Positions 14,636-53,800 of a DNA stretch of 64,000 nt are shown in pieces. This stretch comes from Geitlerinema sp. PCC 7407 (GTDB lineage: Bacteria > Cyanobacteriota > Cyanobacteriia > PCC-7407): the NCBI RefSeq assembly GCF_000317045.1, contig NC_019703.1, forward strand, positions 1,910,501 to 1,974,500. Direction: 5' to 3'. The first letter of the stretch is position 1; every line of letters starts with the position of its first letter. Both the position numbers and the translations under genes were made by a program. The notes beneath the pieces were generated by a model. It did not search any database and had not been told where the DNA came from. It was given only the letters and a program-made list of their open reading frames with translations.

Positions 14636-14943
14636 CTTTTTGCTAGAAAGGCTTGTTCCGGCTGGCGCTCTGGGAACAATGGGCCAATCGCCTAAGAAAT
14701 GATGAAGACTCGCGCGATCTAGCTTGCGCTCTTGAGCTTTTGGGGTAGAGCCTAGAAGTCGAGAGCGCGGCAGGCGATCGAGGGGTGAGCGTGACGTCTG
14801 GGGCGGGAGATGGGCAAGATCAAAACAGCGAATGATGCAACTTTTCTGATGGCTTTGTCACTGACGAATTTGACGGATTTGACGGATTTGTCAACAGTTT
14901 GCTTGGCAGTGAGGGTGAGCCCTTGTGTCCGCTAGCGGCAACG
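14636..14943. other. Intergenic region upstream of the diguanylate cyclase gene
   Basis: 308 bases without a gene. The only structure seen is a run of three 9-bp direct repeats (14863-14889), described separately. It probably carries the promoter of the downstream receiver-GAF-GGDEF gene. Confidence 0.5.
14863..14889 (+). repeat. Three tandem 9-bp repeats
   Basis: GACGAATTT, GACGGATTT and GACGGATTT follow one another without spacing, about 55 bases before the start of the diguanylate cyclase gene. They could be binding sites for a regulator or simple slippage products. Confidence 0.85.
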
Positions 14944-16443
14944 ATGTCAGCAACGATTTTGCTGGTTGATGATCAGCCGGATGAGCTGCGGCTGCTGTCG
15001 GCCATTTTGATGGATCAGGGCTACCGAGTTCGCAAGGCGATCAGTGGTGAGATGGCGCTCAAAAGCATCGAGTTTGAGCTGCCAGACTTGGTGCTGCTAG
15101 ACATCCGGATGCCCGGCATGAACGGCTTTGAGCTGTGTTCTGTGCTGAAGATGTCGGGCAATATGAAAGACATTCCGGTGATTTTCCTCAGCGGCTTAGA
15201 TCTGCTCGAAGACAAGGTCCGCGCCTTTGAGATGGGCGGTGCGGACTACATCACGAAGCCGTTTCATCTGGAGGAGGTGCTGATGCGCATTGGTCATCAG
15301 CTGACGATCCAGCAGCAGCGCCGCCAGCTTATAGACCAAAATCGGCTGCTCCTCGCGGAGGTCCGGGAGCGCAAACGCATTGAGACGATGATGCGTCAGC
15401 AGGCGCGGCGGGAAAAGCTGCTCAGCGCTATCACGTCCCGGATTCGGCAGTCGCTGGATCTGACGGCCATCCTCAAGACGACGGTGGAGGAGGTGCGGGT
15501 GCTGCTCCAGGTCGATCGGGTGGTGATCGATCCCCTGGGAGCGGGGGGGGAGTCGGTGGAGTCGGTGCGATCGCCCGATTTGTCGGTGCAGGGCCGGGTA
15601 ACAGCTCAGTGGTCGCCCGATCATCCCTGCTGGAACCACTTTTTGCAAAATCGCTTGTTCTTGGTAGATGACGTGACGGCGGAGGATGCCCAGGGGTGGT
15701 GCGGTGGCTGGCTGCGCGATCTGGCGGTGCAGGCGGCGCTGGTGCTGCCGATTTTGCAGGGCGATCGCCTGTGGGGGCTGCTGGCGGCCCACCAGTGCAC
15801 GGCGCTGCGGCCCTGGCAGCCCTGGGAGGTGGAGCTGATTCGCCAGGTGACGGCTCAGTTGGCGATCGCCATTGACCAGTCGGAGCTGTATTTGCAGCTC
15901 CAGCAGGCCAACCAGGCCCTGCAAGCGCTGGCCACTCTCGACGGCTTGACCCAGGTGGCTAACCGTCGCCGGTTTGACGAGTTTTTGGCGGTGGAGTGGC
16001 AGCGGGCTCTGCGCGAGGGCCAGCCGATCACGCTGATTTTGTGTGATGTTGACTATTTCAAGCGCTACAACGACACCCAGGGACACCAGCAGGGGGACGA
16101 CTGTCTGCGGCTGGTGGCTCAGGGCATTCAGCAGGTGGTGCAGCGTCCGGCGGACCTGGTAGCGCGCTACGGGGGAGAGGAGTTTGTGGTGATCTTGCCC
16201 AATACGCACCTCAAGGGGGGAATGCGGGTAGCAGAAAAGATCCGAGCGGCGATCGCAGCGTTGGCGATCCCCCATCCGGCCTCCACGGTCAGTCCTTGGA
16301 TTACGGTGAGTTTGGGCGTGGGCTGTCTGCGGCCCCGGCCCAAGCGGGCGGCCAATGATCTGGTCTCAATCGCGGATCAGGCGCTCTATCAGGCCAAGGC
16401 GGAAGGCCGCGATCGCGTTTGTGCGCTGCTGGCTAGCGACTGA
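14944..16443 (+). CDS. Receiver-GAF-GGDEF diguanylate cyclase
   Basis: 499 residues. The receiver domain (5-120) is complete, with Asp9-Asp10, phospho-acceptor Asp53 (L-L-D-I-R-M-P-G) and Lys105 (T-K-P-F). A helical linker, then a GAF domain (about 160-310) that lacks the Cys-His bilin site, and a GGDEF domain (about 325-495) follow. The active-site signature is G-G-E-E-F at 410-414, and an R-P-A-D inhibitory I-site lies five residues before it. It should make c-di-GMP under phosphorylation control, with product feedback. The ATG at 14944 is preferred to an upstream GTG-type extension because the receiver begins right there. Its 3' end overlaps the convergent ruvA by 11 bases. Confidence 0.92.
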   Translation: MSATILLVDDQPDELRLLSAILMDQGYRVRKAISGEMALKSIEFELPDLVLLDIRMPGMNGFELCSVLKMSGNMKDIPVIFLSGLDLLEDKVRAFEMGGADYITKPFHLEEVLMRIGHQLTIQQQRRQLIDQNRLLLAEVRERKRIETMMRQQARREKLLSAITSRIRQSLDLTAILKTTVEEVRVLLQVDRVVIDPLGAGGESVESVRSPDLSVQGRVTAQWSPDHPCWNHFLQNRLFLVDDVTAEDAQGWCGGWLRDLAVQAALVLPILQGDRLWGLLAAHQCTALRPWQPWEVELIRQVTAQLAIAIDQSELYLQLQQANQALQALATLDGLTQVANRRRFDEFLAVEWQRALREGQPITLILCDVDYFKRYNDTQGHQQGDDCLRLVAQGIQQVVQRPADLVARYGGEEFVVILPNTHLKGGMRVAEKIRAAIAALAIPHPASTVSPWITVSLGVGCLRPRPKRAANDLVSIADQALYQAKAEGRDRVCALLASD

Positions 16444-26631: not shown

Positions 26632-26708
26632 GCCGATGGTCTCATCGGCAGGGAGGTAAACCTTTGAGCGGTGCCGTAAACCTTGAGAGAGAGGGCAGGA
26701 CTGCATTC

Positions 26709-27839
26709 ATGACATTAGCTGAAGAGTTGGCTGATGGTTGGCGATCGCGCTTGCAGCAAGACTGCGCTGATCAGAGCGAGGCGGTGCGTGAAGGCATCGT
26801 CAACTGGTTGCTAGGCGAAGATCAGACGCGCTTTGAGGGGCTGGACCCGGACCAGTTGGCGATCGCCCAACAGGCCATGGACTACCGCTACCGAATTTTG
26901 GTCCAGCGCTATCTGGGGGTAGCGCCCGATCGCGCCTACCAAAAGCTGCTCCAGCGGCTTAGCAGCCTGTTTTTGATCCGCAACAAGATTCGGACTTGGG
27001 TCTCTCTGAGCCGCGATCGCCATCGGACGGTCATGGATGTGCTGCAAGAGGTGGTGCAGGAACTGCTGCAAAGCGATCGCTACATGCAGCAGCAGATCGC
27101 CTGGATTGCTCAGTGCACGCGCAGCTCGGTGTTGCGCAACGTTCTGCTGCTGGCCAGCTTGGAAGAGTATTGTCTGCGCCCGATCCGCAACCAGCCGCTG
27201 CTGGTATACCGGTTTGTGAACTACCTGCGGCGATCGCAGCGGGGCGGCATGACCCAAGTGCCGGGCGGCGAGCTAGTGCGCTTGGTTTCTGAGGAGATCG
27301 CCCCTGACGATGCCGAAAACCCCATTAGCCTGCTGGACAATCAGGCGGTTGCTCAATACCAAGAGGAGCAGGAGTGGGAAGAGCGTCAGCGCCTGCGCAA
27401 TGGCGTTCAGCAAGAATTTGAGGCGTATTTGGTCGAAAACGTTGACCCCCTGGCGGCACGGTGGCTGCAGCTTCACCTCCAGGGGCGCTCCCAGGAGTCC
27501 ATTGCCAAGCTGCTGGGCGTGCCGATCAAGCAGGTTTATCGCCTTCGGGAAAAAATTAGCTACCACGCAGTTCGCGTCTTTGCCCTCAAGGGGCAGCCAG
27601 AGCTGGTGGCTAGCTGGCTCGAAACTTCGCTACAGGAGCACAGCTTGGGCCTGACTCCCGAGCAGTGGCAGCAGTTTTGGGAGACGCTCACGCCGGTGCA
27701 GCAGCTGCTGCTAGAGCACCTCAAGGAGGGCCAAAAGCCAGAGGCGATCGCCAAAGAGCTCAATCTCAAAACCCATCAAGTGATGGGAGAGTGGGGAAAG
27801 CTTTACCTGGCGGCCCAAGCTTTGCGAAACGTGTCGTGA
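26709..27839 (+). CDS. HetZ-related protein
   Basis: 376 residues from the ATG at 26709. The sequence resembles the cyanobacterial HetZ-related family: an N-terminal region with A-M-D-Y-R-Y-R-I-L, a central block (N-Q-P-L-L-V-Y-R-F-V-N-Y-L-R-R-S with R-G-G-M-T-Q-V-P), and C-terminal helix-turn-helix-like segments (S-I-A-K-L-L-G-V-P-I-K-Q-V-Y-R-L-R and A-I-A-K-E-L-N-L-K-T). HetZ is a DNA-binding regulator of heterocyst development, but relatives occur in strains without heterocysts, where their role is unknown. The product also looks sigma-factor-like in its repeated HTH elements. The family call is from memory of conserved blocks and should be confirmed by search. Confidence 0.65.
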   Translation: MTLAEELADGWRSRLQQDCADQSEAVREGIVNWLLGEDQTRFEGLDPDQLAIAQQAMDYRYRILVQRYLGVAPDRAYQKLLQRLSSLFLIRNKIRTWVSLSRDRHRTVMDVLQEVVQELLQSDRYMQQQIAWIAQCTRSSVLRNVLLLASLEEYCLRPIRNQPLLVYRFVNYLRRSQRGGMTQVPGGELVRLVSEEIAPDDAENPISLLDNQAVAQYQEEQEWEERQRLRNGVQQEFEAYLVENVDPLAARWLQLHLQGRSQESIAKLLGVPIKQVYRLREKISYHAVRVFALKGQPELVASWLETSLQEHSLGLTPEQWQQFWETLTPVQQLLLEHLKEGQKPEAIAKELNLKTHQVMGEWGKLYLAAQALRNVS

Positions 27840-27961
27840 TGGGAAAGTCTTGGGCTCTTTCTAGCTCAGCGCGGGACCCGTCGCAGGCGATCGGTTGCAG
27901 CTTTCGATAAAACTTCGCAACTCGATCCGGAGGACTAGCCAATGGGGCGTCTAGGATAGTA

Positions 27962-28043
27962 TTGATCCACATCGATCAACTTCTGTGCTGAGTACAGAAG
28001 TGGGGGCGGGAGGTGACTGCCGGTTTTGCCGGGTCAAGGTCAC
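27962..28043 (+). other. Cluster of three consecutive stem-loops
   Basis: Three inverted repeats follow each other: TTGATC/GATCAA (27962-27967 with 27974-27979), CTTCTGT/ACAGAAG (27980-27986 with 27994-28000), and GTGAC/GTCAC (28013-28017 with 28039-28043), which encloses CCGG/CCGG. This could be a structured leader of the downstream gene, a 3' end of the HetZ-related transcript, or a small RNA. The whole gap 27840-28219 contains no other gene that I can support. Confidence 0.35.
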
Positions 28044-28219
28044 TTCCAGGGTGCCGCCTCATATCTAGTGCAAGTTTTCTTCTGATATTTCGTGACCGGG
28101 CTTTGAGATCTGCTGGGGATTGGGCGATCGCCTCGAATTTGCGATCGCTGTTTGCCATCCCATTGCAGCCCATGGAGCCCCTCGTCCCATACCCCTTCAT
28201 TTGTCCTCGGGCTCTACCC

Positions 28220-29458
28220 ATGGCGTTCCCTCCCACTGATGATTGCTCCGCTGCCGGAGCAGCCATTCCGCGTCGCTCTGAGTCTCCTGCGATGGCCCAA
28301 AATTCGCCCCTGACGGCGGCCCAAGTCGACGCTGAGCAAGCGTTTCGCCTAATCGACAGCATTTTGCCCTTTGAGGCGTGCCTGTATCATCAGGTGTTTC
28401 CGGTGGCTCTGGAGGGCAGTCGGCTGCGCTTGGCGATGGTGGATCCGAGCGATCGGGCGGCTATGGACTATGTGCGGCGAATTTTGGCGTTTATGAACTG
28501 CTCGCCTCAGCCCCAGGCGATCGCCCCCGACGCTCACCACGCGCTGCTGTCAGCCTATCTCCACTACAAAAACCTCCACCCCACCGCGCCGCCCCTGGAC
28601 CCGCGATCGCTCCAAGAGACGCGGGAAACCCTGATCGTGGACAGCCCGACCCTAGTGACGGATGGCTTTGTGGCCCCGCGCGATCGCCCCTGCCCTGAGC
28701 CCCCTGTTGACGAGGGAACCTTGATTTTGACCGAGGGACCAGAGCCTGAGGCGATCGCCCCGCCCCCGCTGCCGCCTCCACCGCCTGCACCCGACCCCCA
28801 CCCCAGAATTCCGCTTCTTGTATTGCAGGTAAGCCACCTGGCCGAGCCAGTTCAGCACCTGGTTACCCTACCTCCCCAAAAACTTTTGCAGGAGCTGCTG
28901 GGACGAGCACTGCTGGGCGGTATCGGGCGACTTTATTTTGAGCGCTACGACCATTCTGGCCGCATTCTCTGGAGCCAAGACGGCGTACTTCAGTCGGTCA
29001 TCGAAGCTCTACCCCAGTCCCTCTTCCAGGCTCTCCTCAACGAGCTCAAGCGCCTGGCTCAGACCTCCATGGTCACTGTCCAAAAGCCAAAGCAGGTCGA
29101 GATCGAGCGCCTCTACCAGGGCCAGCGCGTCCTGCTGCGCATTCGCCTCATGCCCGGCGCCTGGGGAGAAGAAGCAACTTTGCAGGTTTTGCGGGGGGCT
29201 GCGCTGCGCTTCCATGAGCAGCAGCGTCTAGACCGCCTCAGCCAAGAGGCGCTGCGCATTGCTCAGCGACTTCAGCAGACGGTGAATGAGATTCGCCAGC
29301 GCAGCAAGGGGCAAGATGGGACCCTGTCGGAGGCCTCGCTAGAAGCGTTGCCAGCCCTCAATCGAGTCCTGCAACACCTCGATCGCCAAATCCAGGACTT
29401 GGCCCACGACGCCCATTCCGAGCCAGAGCTGCCGCCTGAGAGTGGCGAAAAACCCTAA
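28220..29458 (+). CDS. PilB/GspE-derived protein lacking the ATPase domain
   Basis: About 412 residues from the ATG at 28220; ATGs at 28172 and 28292 are equally possible. The first part (A-F-R-L-I-D-S-I-L-P-F to A-Y-L-H-Y-K) resembles the MshEN-type N-terminal domain of type IV pilus ATPases. After a Pro-rich linker, the second part (L-Q-E-L-L-G-R-A-L-L-G-G-I, Q-D-G-V-L-Q-S-V, Q-R-V-L-L-R-I-R-L-M-P, W-G-E-E-A-T-L-Q-V-L) matches the PAS-like domain just ahead of the PilB ATPase core. The protein then turns into a coiled-coil tail where Walker A should begin. It therefore cannot hydrolyse ATP and may bind PilB, c-di-GMP or pilus parts. Its stop overlaps the convergent acetyltransferase gene. 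Confidence 0.65.
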   Translation: MAFPPTDDCSAAGAAIPRRSESPAMAQNSPLTAAQVDAEQAFRLIDSILPFEACLYHQVFPVALEGSRLRLAMVDPSDRAAMDYVRRILAFMNCSPQPQAIAPDAHHALLSAYLHYKNLHPTAPPLDPRSLQETRETLIVDSPTLVTDGFVAPRDRPCPEPPVDEGTLILTEGPEPEAIAPPPLPPPPPAPDPHPRIPLLVLQVSHLAEPVQHLVTLPPQKLLQELLGRALLGGIGRLYFERYDHSGRILWSQDGVLQSVIEALPQSLFQALLNELKRLAQTSMVTVQKPKQVEIERLYQGQRVLLRIRLMPGAWGEEATLQVLRGAALRFHEQQRLDRLSQEALRIAQRLQQTVNEIRQRSKGQDGTLSEASLEALPALNRVLQHLDRQIQDLAHDAHSEPELPPESGEKP

Positions 29459-49811: not shown

Positions 49812-50801
49812 TCAAGAAATAGCCGGAAAGATCGGAGAAGGAGCCTCAGGCGTTTTCGGATCGCTGACGTGGAGCACAAAGCGATCGCGCCCGGATGCCT
49901 TGGCCTGGTAGAGCGCCACGTCCGCATTGGCCAGCAGATGGCTCGGGCTGCTGTGGGGGACCGGCGTCATGCTGGCGATGCCCACGCTCAAGGTGACATG
50001 ACAGTCCGAGCGCGAGGTGCGATGGGGAATCCGGAGCGCCCGCACGGCGCCGCAGACAGCCTCTGCCACCTGGACAGCGCCAACGGCGTCGGTGTTGGGC
50101 AAGATCACCGCGAATTCTTCGCCGCCGTAGCGCGCCACGAGGTCTGCGGGGCGACGCACCGTGTTGCCGATGGCCTGGGCGACCTGTTGCAGGCAACGAT
50201 CGCCCGCTTGGTGGCCGTAGGTGTCGTTGTAAGGCTTGAAATAGTCCAGATCGCAAACCAGCAGCGAAAGGGGCTGCTGCTCCCGAGCCATGCGTCGCCA
50301 CTCCTGCTCAAGATACTCATCAAAGCGGCGGCGGTTGGCCACCTGGGTCAACCCATCGATGGCCACCAGGCGCTGAAGCTCCCGGTTGGCGATTTCGAGC
50401 TCCTTTTGCAGCTGGGCCTGCTGGATCAGGCGGCGGACCCGCTGCCGCAAGACCGCCCAGTGAATCGGCTTGGTCACATAGTCGGCGGCCCCCACCTCGA
50501 AGGCGTGGTCAACGGACACCTGATCTTCGAGACCCGTGATCATCAGCACGGGCGTATAGCGACCCTCGGGGATCGTCTGAAGCTGTTCGCAGCACTCGAA
50601 GCCGTCAACGTCGGGCATCAGGGCGTCGAGCAGCACAATGTCCGGGTGGGTTTGACTGTAGATACTCAGCGCCTGCCGACCATTTTCGGCCTCAACGACG
50701 CGGTATCCTTCCCGTTCGAGACACATGCGCAGCTGCATCCGGATAAAGGTCTCGTCATCCACCACGAGGATCAAGGATGATTCTGCTGATTTATGATTCA
50801 T
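49812..50801 (-). CDS. Receiver-GGDEF diguanylate cyclase
   Basis: 329 residues from the ATG at 50801, preceded by AAGGG. The receiver domain (about 9-130) has Asp15-Asp16, phospho-acceptor in L-L-D-A-L-M-P-D and Lys in T-K-P-I-H-W. The GGDEF domain (about 150-315) contains [10 protein letters not shown]-x-F-D, the G-G-E-E-F active site and the R-P-A-D I-site. The start lies inside the 3' end of the giant hybrid kinase gene (11-base overlap), so the two are coupled and this is its likely phospho-target, turning the kinase signal into c-di-GMP. Confidence 0.93.
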
Positions 50802-53800
50802 GGGTTCCCTTCTCCACCTCCTCGTGCAAAGCAGCGATAACTCGCTCAAATTCTTGAACTAGCGCTTCGGCAACAGGGGCGCTGGCCTGAAGGCAGTTGT
50901 CTTTGCCCTGGGTTTCTAGGGTTCGACAAAGCTGGGCGAGGGCCGTTGCTCCTAGGGATGCGCTACTAGATTTGAGTCGATGGGCTGCCTCTTGAAGCTG
51001 GCGGGCTTGGCTCTCGGCGATCGCTGCTTGGATCTCCTGCACCATTTTGGGGGCGTCGGTCAGGTAGTAACGCAACAGTTCGGCCAGGGCAGCTTCGTCT
51101 CCCCCCAGCATATCCCGGAGTGACTGCAATGCCTGCGCATTCAGGGGAGAATCGGCGGCGCTGGCGGGAGGCGCTGGCGGAGCGGGAGGCGGCAGCAAAA
51201 GGGGCCGCTGAACCGTGCGATCGCAGTTTCGCAGGGCCGTTTCCAGCTCCTGAATATGTACGGGTTTGCTGATGTAGTCGTCCATGCCAGCGGCGAGACA
51301 CTGCTCGCGATCGCCCCGCATCGCATTGGCCGTCATGGCCACAATCCACGGCTGGTTGTCGGAGCCTTCGCCCTGCCGAATGCGCCGCGTAGTTTCCAGC
51401 CCGTCCATCTCGGGCATCTGGACATCCATCAAGATCAAGTCGTAGGGCTGGCGCTTGAGGGCGGCTAGGACCTCAATGCCGTTGCCAGCAACGTCAGCCC
51501 GATAGCCCATCTTCTGGAGCATCAGCAGGGCGACCTTTTGGTTGACGACGGTGTCTTCGGCCAGGAGGATGCGTAGGGGGTACTGCTCCGCTAGGTGGGG
51601 GTTGACGGGGGGCGCTTCGCGGTACTCGACATTGGCCTTGATGGGCTGATTGCTCAGGGCCAGGGCGAGGGCCTCATAGAGCTGGGACTGCTTGACGGGC
51701 TTGCTTAGGCAGGCGGCAAAGCGGGCTTCGCTGCTCTGGTGACATTCCTGGAGCTGGCCGAGGGAGGTCAGCATGAGGAGGGGAATGTGCTCACACTGGC
51801 CGTAGCGCCGCATGGTGACCGCCAGAGAAAGGCCGTCCATTTCCGGCATCTGCATGTCCAAGATGGCAATGTCGAAGTTTTCGCCGTGCTCGAGGAGGTC
51901 GATCGCCTCGTGGGCCGAGGACACTGCGAAGGGCTTCATTTTCCAGGACTCCGCCTGCATCTGCAAAATCTTGCGGTTGGTGGCGTTGTCATCGACGATC
52001 AGCAGCCGCTTGTTGGTGAGCTGGTGCGGCAGCGGACAGGACAAAATGGCATGGTCAGCGCTGACGGCCTGGGCCACGATGGTGCAGTAGAAGGTCGAGC
52101 CGGGGCCGGGTTTGGGGGCGCTTTGGCTGCTGGACTCGTAGGGAACCAGCGATCGCGCGTCGGCAGCCGGATGCTTGGCGGCGGCTATGTCCTCGGGGGG
52201 GTATCCGCCGATCTTGCCGCGGCTCTCCACCCACAAGGTGCCGCCCATCATCTGGCTGAGGCGCTGGCTGATCACCAGACCCAGGCCGGTGCCGCCGTAC
52301 TCGCGGGTGGTCGAGGCGTCGGCCTGACTAAAGGGCTTGAAGAGGCGGTCCATGGCGTCGGGCGCAATGCCGATGCCGGTGTCTTTGACGGCGAACTGGA
52401 GGGTGTAGCGGGACGAACCATCGGCGGCGATCGCCTCGTCTAGGGGCCGAGCCATCACCGTCAAGACCACCTCCCCAACCGTCGTGAACTTGATCGCGTT
52501 TCCCATCAGATTGACCAAAATCTGGCGCAGCCGCGTCACATCCCCCACAAACTGGGTCGGAGACTGGGAATCCACGAGGTAGGCCAGCTCCAGGTCTTTC
52601 TCCACGGCCCGCGGCACCATCAGATCGATCACTTCTTCGATGCAGGTGCGCAGATCAAAGGGGTGATTCTCCAGCTCTAGCTTGCCCGACTCGATCTTGG
52701 AGAAATCCAGAATGTCATTAATGATCGTCAGCAGAGCATCGCCGCTAAAGCGAATGGTCTCCACAAAGTCCCGCTGCTGGGCGTTAAGCGGCGTGTCGAG
52801 CAGCAATCCCGTCATGCCGATCACGGCATTCATGGGGGTGCGAATTTCGTGGCTCATCATGGCCAAAAATTCGCTCTTTGCCCGGTTGGCGGCTTCGGCT
52901 TCCTGCTTAGACAGTTCGAGGGCCAGATTTTTGAGCAAAAGCTCTTCGCTCTGGACGGCTAGGGCCTGACGCTGGAGAGTCTCCTGTTCGAGGAGCTGGG
53001 CCTGGGCGAGGGCGATGCCGAGCTGGGCCGCGACGGCTTCGAGGAGCTCGATCTCGTCGGAGGTCCACTGCCGGAAGTGATCGCACTGGTGGAGGGCGAT
53101 CGCGCCGTTGGGCTGGCCCTGATAGGAGGTGCGAATCGATAGCGTAGACTTGAGCCCCACCTGACGACACAGGGCCTCAACCGGCTCAAATAGCGGATTT
53201 TCGTAGACGTCTTCGGTCGCGAGGACCTGGTCGGCGCTCATCAGCTCCTCGATGTGGCGATCGCCCAGCATCGGCACCTGAGCGTCCATCATCGAGACGT
53301 AGCCCGCCTCCAGATACTCGGCCACCAGCCGCACGGAGGGCGTCTCCTCCAGGAGGTAGCTGTAAATCAAGCAGCGGTTGGCATTGAAAGAAAAGCCGAT
53401 CTGGTTGGCCGCCGTCTCGAAAATTTGCTGACTGTCGAGGCTCTGGCGAATTTCCTCGGTAATGCGCTTGATCAGCAGCATTTTGCGCAGCTGGGTTTGC
53501 AGAGCGGCTTTGGCCTTTTGACGCTCCTCCTGACCGCGGGCCTCCTTGATGAAAATGGCCAGCTGCTGGGCGGCCTCTGTGACCACCGAGATCTCGTGAT
53601 CTTGCCAATGGCGCGGGGTTGGCGCGTCCAGACATAGAATGCCCACCAGGCGATCGGAGTGGTGCAGAGGGACATCGAGAATGGCCTCGGTGCCGCCAGC
53701 GAGCAGCGCCTCGGCGATCGGCAGCAGGCGAGTGTCGTGCTGGACATGGCTAGCGGCGATCACCTCGCCCTCTCGCAGGGCCTGGAGGTAAGCGGGGGCG

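Follow-up and report, generated by a model that had tools for sequence, protein, structure and literature searches.

What does a cyanobacterium do with the front half of a pilus motor when the engine domain is gone? This question is raised by a gene on the plus strand of a 64,000-nucleotide stretch of the Geitlerinema sp. PCC 7407 genome (NC_019703.1, positions 1,910,501 to 1,974,500), referred to below as the window. The gene covers window positions 28220 to 29458 and encodes a protein of 412 amino acids (aa), as judged from the open reading frame, the conservation of the family, and the GC content by codon position (0.735/0.444/0.692), which is typical of coding DNA. We are not certain of the start codon: ATG 28220 is the most likely, but GTG 28013 and ATG 28172 upstream and ATG 28292 downstream are also in frame. 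The gene is apparently undescribed in the literature that we searched.

The protein is a paralogue of PilB, the type IV pilus assembly ATPase. It matched Pfam MshEN (E = 2.2e-10, positions 17 to 83 of a 90-position profile), the NCBIfam PilB model TIGR02538 (E = 7.8e-12, positions 181 to 293 of 564), and Pfam T2SSE (E = 1.5e-10, positions 9 to 140 of 370, which is only the part ahead of Walker A). PilB/GspE chains were the best matches in a sequence search of the PDB (top E value, 8.8e-9), and an hhalign comparison of the paralogue family with PilB gave a probability of 99.5%. We built an AlphaFold2 model on 69 homologues, with a mean pLDDT of 82 and values above 95 across most of both domains. 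The first domain, ND1 (residues 34 to 120; 28319 to 28579, plus strand), is an MshEN_C subdomain with conserved columns that include the family signature FEACLYHQ; its pLDDT was 87 to 97, and Foldseek placed it with the N-domains of PilF/PilB/MshE (6ejf_G, 7lkm, 5htl). The MshEN-like domain of the initial annotation is thus present as its second half only, MshEN_C. A proline-rich, mostly disordered linker follows (residues 121 to 210; 28580 to 28849, plus strand), which varies in length among relatives and was mostly modeled with low confidence (pLDDT of 37 to 80 over most of it). ND2 (residues 211 to 325; 28850 to 29194, plus strand), the domain that precedes Walker A in PilB/GspE, superposed on the ND2 of 5tsh, 5zfr, and 1p9w at ∼2 Å over ∼110 residues, so that both halves of the protein have fold matches and the early identification of this second domain was borne out by Pfam, TIGR02538, hhalign, and the structural model.

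In place of the ATPase domain, the protein ends in a helical hairpin (29195 to 29416, plus strand) formed by two long helices, residues 326 to 364 and 371 to 399, with a pLDDT of mostly 80 to 96. Its first helix opens with a motif conserved in the family consensus, AALKFYQQQQL. None of the 98 family members examined carries a Walker A motif or continues into an ATPase domain, whereas the separate, full-length PilB of the same genome (665 aa) has GPTGSGKT. Aligned with that PilB, the paralogue starts after MshEN_N and stops, as had been read from the sequence at the outset, before the ATPase core. The paralogue therefore shares with the PilB/GspE assembly ATPases the succession of ND1 (MshEN_C) and ND2 in the same fold, and differs from them in having no ND0/MshEN_N, no ATPase core, a replaced ND2 signature, and the C-terminal hairpin. 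It corresponds, in short, to the front part of PilB with the engine domain gone.

This anatomy bears on whether the protein senses c-di-GMP, as had been suggested. The main c-di-GMP binder is MshEN_N, a 53-residue module, and binding requires its two 24-residue RLGxx...LxxQ motifs (PMC5013675). The paralogue has the MshEN_C half in common with this receptor domain but lacks the binding half and, because the motifs belong to the missing MshEN_N, c-di-GMP sensing is unsupported. In none of the 98 members did the N-terminal region contain the RLGxxL motif; the one chance match was at residue 360, near the C terminus of a single member (L119). The NCBIfam model of the c-di-GMP motif (NF053729) did not match the paralogue; it gave a weak match, under its cut-off, to the genome's own PilB. 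Despite the Pfam MshEN match and the presence in the window of two diguanylate cyclase genes, which are real (14899 to 16443 and 49812 to 50849), we consider a c-di-GMP sensor very improbable. These cyclase genes lie ∼12 and ∼20 kb from the paralogue gene and were not conserved neighbors in 80 related loci. Both encode response-regulator-type proteins (GGDEF E values of 4.5e-53 and 3.5e-55, respectively).

We looked into the distribution of the family. Matches were found in 36 of 39 relatives from the class, and most of the larger genomes hold a stand-alone frame, mostly 43 to 54% identical over the best segment, with a separate PilB of ∼670 to 710 aa alongside. In a broader sample, 144 of 291 cyanobacterial genomes gave a strong match to the family profile, and many of the sampled families lacked the paralogue, matching only at the level of canonical PilB. 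With a median dN/dS of 0.24 over 35 close pairs, the family is, judging by its coding sequences, under purifying selection. The missing ATPase domain could in itself indicate a truncated, decaying pilB copy, but the same shortened form is conserved across the class under purifying selection; conservation refutes this reading, to which we give essentially no weight, and the gene is intact and stand-alone as first described.

In a tree of ND1 plus ND2, which is unrooted and has long branches, 16 canonical cyanobacterial PilBs were split from the paralogue family with 100% support, and the members nearest to the split (L048 and L051) have no neighboring gene for HetZ-related protein 2 (see below). 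PilB has 105 conserved positions, of which the family retains 33 and has swapped 52 for another residue that it conserves itself, mostly in ND2 (∼19 kept and ∼34 changed, versus ∼12 kept and 4 changed in ND1); the DIAERRxPQDGR signature of ND2 has given way to other residues throughout the family. Such replacement of residues by other conserved residues argues for a change of function rather than for decay.

Could this function be exerted on the pilus motor? In a stand-alone regulator of type IV pili, ND1 would dock PilM, as GspE does on GspL, or would bind pilus regulators, and ND2 would interfere with the PilB ring. ND1 is indeed the better-kept half, it bears the PilM interface in PilB (PMC8389850), the top Foldseek entries were the GspE chains of the GspE-GspL complex 4pht, and cyanobacterial PilB is an interaction hub whose partners include PATAN regulators (PMC12288463). 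Against this, the ND2 signature is altered across the family, the paralogue is absent from many sampled families, and no pilus gene was found among the conserved neighbors in the 80 loci, in agreement with the initial annotation, which had noted that the gene is not beside pilus genes. The loss of the signature and the gene neighborhood also weaken the earlier idea of competition for PilB hexamer contacts. On balance, we regard a pilus motor regulator as unlikely, though still worth weighing. A second PilB homologue has been mentioned in some cyanobacteria, with no known function (PMC12288463); as far as this mention allows comparison, both are additional PilB homologues, and the paralogue family is the one described here as devoid of an ATPase domain.

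The gene order pointed elsewhere. Directly upstream on the plus strand (26664 to 27839) lies a gene that the initial annotation had not considered and whose product is HetZ-related protein 2 (HetZ_rel_2; NCBIfam NF037965, E = 2.9e-192), 391 aa long from TTG 26664, with the family start probably at ATG 26709. A consensus scan of the intergenic stretch (27840 to 28219) revealed neither promoter- nor terminator-like sequences. We examined 80 named loci found with the paralogue, for example, in Nostoc, Calothrix, Leptolyngbya, Microcoleus, and Roseofilum; the recognized organisms among them are filamentous cyanobacteria. In 71 of the 80 loci, HetZ_rel_2 was the next gene upstream, in the same orientation (median gap, 291 bp); in another one it lay one gene further upstream, and any other gene of the window recurred in at most 10. 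When the class was sampled evenly, 74 of the 123 genomes holding both genes had them side by side, covering 13 of 19 families, and many of the nonadjacent cases had them on different contigs of fragmented assemblies. This neighbor points towards developmental or transcriptional regulation, and it is the genomic partner, more than any control of pili, that makes the paralogue interesting. The literature that we searched held nothing on HetZ-related protein 2 and nothing useful on alr0202.

HetZ_rel_2 contains two helix-turn-helix segments with weak matches resembling sigma-70 region 4, and it matched the NCBIfam sigma70-ECF model (E = 5.7e-7, positions ∼23 to 156 of 165). Sigma factors headed the list of its Foldseek matches, none of which was significant (best E value, 0.066), and hhalign aligned it with the genome's own sigma factors only over the helix-turn-helix (probability of 34%). 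The promoters on which HetZ acts have a motif centered at −35. It may be worth testing whether the HetZ family goes back to a distant sigma-like ancestor.

The layout of a HetZ-family regulator gene followed by a gene for a product not recognized as an enzyme is shared with the hetZ-patU operon. PatU3, encoded behind hetZ, binds HetZ in yeast two-hybrid and pull-down assays (PMC7377430) and is thought to limit HetZ availability (PMC7377430; PMC12288457); it also has a role in division through ZipS (PMC12288457), and hetR, hetZ, and patU3 have been proposed as part of a core for filament formation (PMC2821919). The position of the paralogue gene directly behind a hetZ-family gene could suggest that it is PatU itself. 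However, the true hetZ is elsewhere in the Geitlerinema genome and is followed there by a PatU candidate (C1:1090125-1091276). Our PatU reference was chosen by position, as the gene that follows hetZ in the Geitlerinema genome and in related genomes; compared with it, the paralogue gave an hhalign probability of 0.2% and no blastp match, and we see virtually no chance that the two are the same protein. Since PatU is not homologous to the paralogue, the parallel is one of layout only. The two pairs also differ in the regulator, HetZ-related 2 being a divergent paralogue of HetZ. In one relative, hetZ, patU, and the HetZ-related 2 gene are found in one cluster (L199:3575-7905, genome G010), which links the two gene pairs.

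We tentatively favor, at somewhat less than even odds, the explanation that the PilB paralogue became a nonenzymatic partner of HetZ-related protein 2, a partnership suggested by gene order. According to this proposal, PilB was duplicated long ago, and one of the copies lost MshEN_N (ND0) and the ATPase domain, gained the helical hairpin, and was kept by purifying selection as a nonenzymatic protein-interaction module encoded behind a HetZ-family DNA-binding regulator. It would most likely bind HetZ-related protein 2, or the machinery that this regulator targets, and tune its activity in the way that PatU3 binds and restrains HetZ. ND1 is known as a protein-docking module, in GspE-GspL and PilB-PilZ (PMC8389850, PMC11656802), and a nonenzymatic adaptor is therefore a natural reading of the paralogue. 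The domain anatomy, the missing ATPase and c-di-GMP modules, the breadth of the family, its purifying selection, and the conserved gene order are observed; a physical contact, whether it would restrain or activate the regulator, and whether it would serve filament development or division are what we infer beyond them. A more specific version, in which the pilus-motor fragment would be the sensor or adaptor arm of the HetZ-family regulator and would pass a PilB-directed signal to developmental gene expression in filaments, seems to us a long shot; the signal could come via PATAN-type response regulators or PilM.

Several observations speak against the partnership with HetZ-related protein 2. 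The paralogue occurs without HetZ_rel_2 in 21 genomes and HetZ_rel_2 without the paralogue in 24, and in at least 10 genomes both genes are on one contig yet far apart (for example, 61 to 125 kb in one genus, g80). One family (f16; e.g., locus L076) has retained the PilB-derived gene although its HetZ_rel_2 consistently lacks the last ∼65 residues (profile positions 2 to 300 of 367), which correspond approximately to the HetZ region needed for PatU3 binding. The presence of the paralogue was associated with that of HetZ_rel_2 across the sampled genomes (odds ratio of 30, p = 1e-34) and even more strongly with that of hetZ (odds ratio of 60), the paralogue being found in 131/152 hetZ-positive and 13/139 hetZ-negative genomes. 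Within the hetZ-positive genomes, the paralogue and HetZ_rel_2 were distributed independently (odds ratio of 1.27, p = 0.67). This independence implies that the pair is not obligate and leaves gene order as the one basis of the functional link; phyletic co-occurrence, which we had considered as support for the pair, vanished once conditioned on hetZ.

The same distribution suits another reading, namely, that the paralogue is one of the hetZ-positive gene set and acts as a scaffold of filament organization or division, with no contact to HetZ_rel_2. The division role of PatU3 itself and the long helical hairpin of the AlphaFold2 model, which suggests assembly, are both in line with such a scaffold. 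It leaves the conserved adjacency to HetZ_rel_2 unexplained, and we judge it improbable, on a par with the pilus motor regulator. With the paralogue, a widely conserved gene joins the small hetZ-linked set and HetZ-related protein 2 gains a candidate partner; whether domains of the pilus motor have been reused for the control of differentiation or division can now be tested directly.

Gene fusions were also considered as evidence for a partner and discarded: the long HetZ_rel_2 frames that we found are fused to other sequence, never to the paralogue. In one, the N-terminal half of HetZ-related protein 2 is part of a 1289-aa protein in which inspection by eye suggested NB-ARC and CHAT-like regions (L138:1286-5155, minus strand); in another, an 809-aa frame ends in HetZ-related protein 2 behind an N-terminal part of other origin, TPR-like by eye (L137:1207-3636, plus strand). 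Finally, one genome (G007) contains a second, broken pair, in which a PilB-derived frame interrupted by two stops lies behind a partial HetZ-related 2 gene (C17:87700-89591), and its intact PilB-derived gene sits on another contig.
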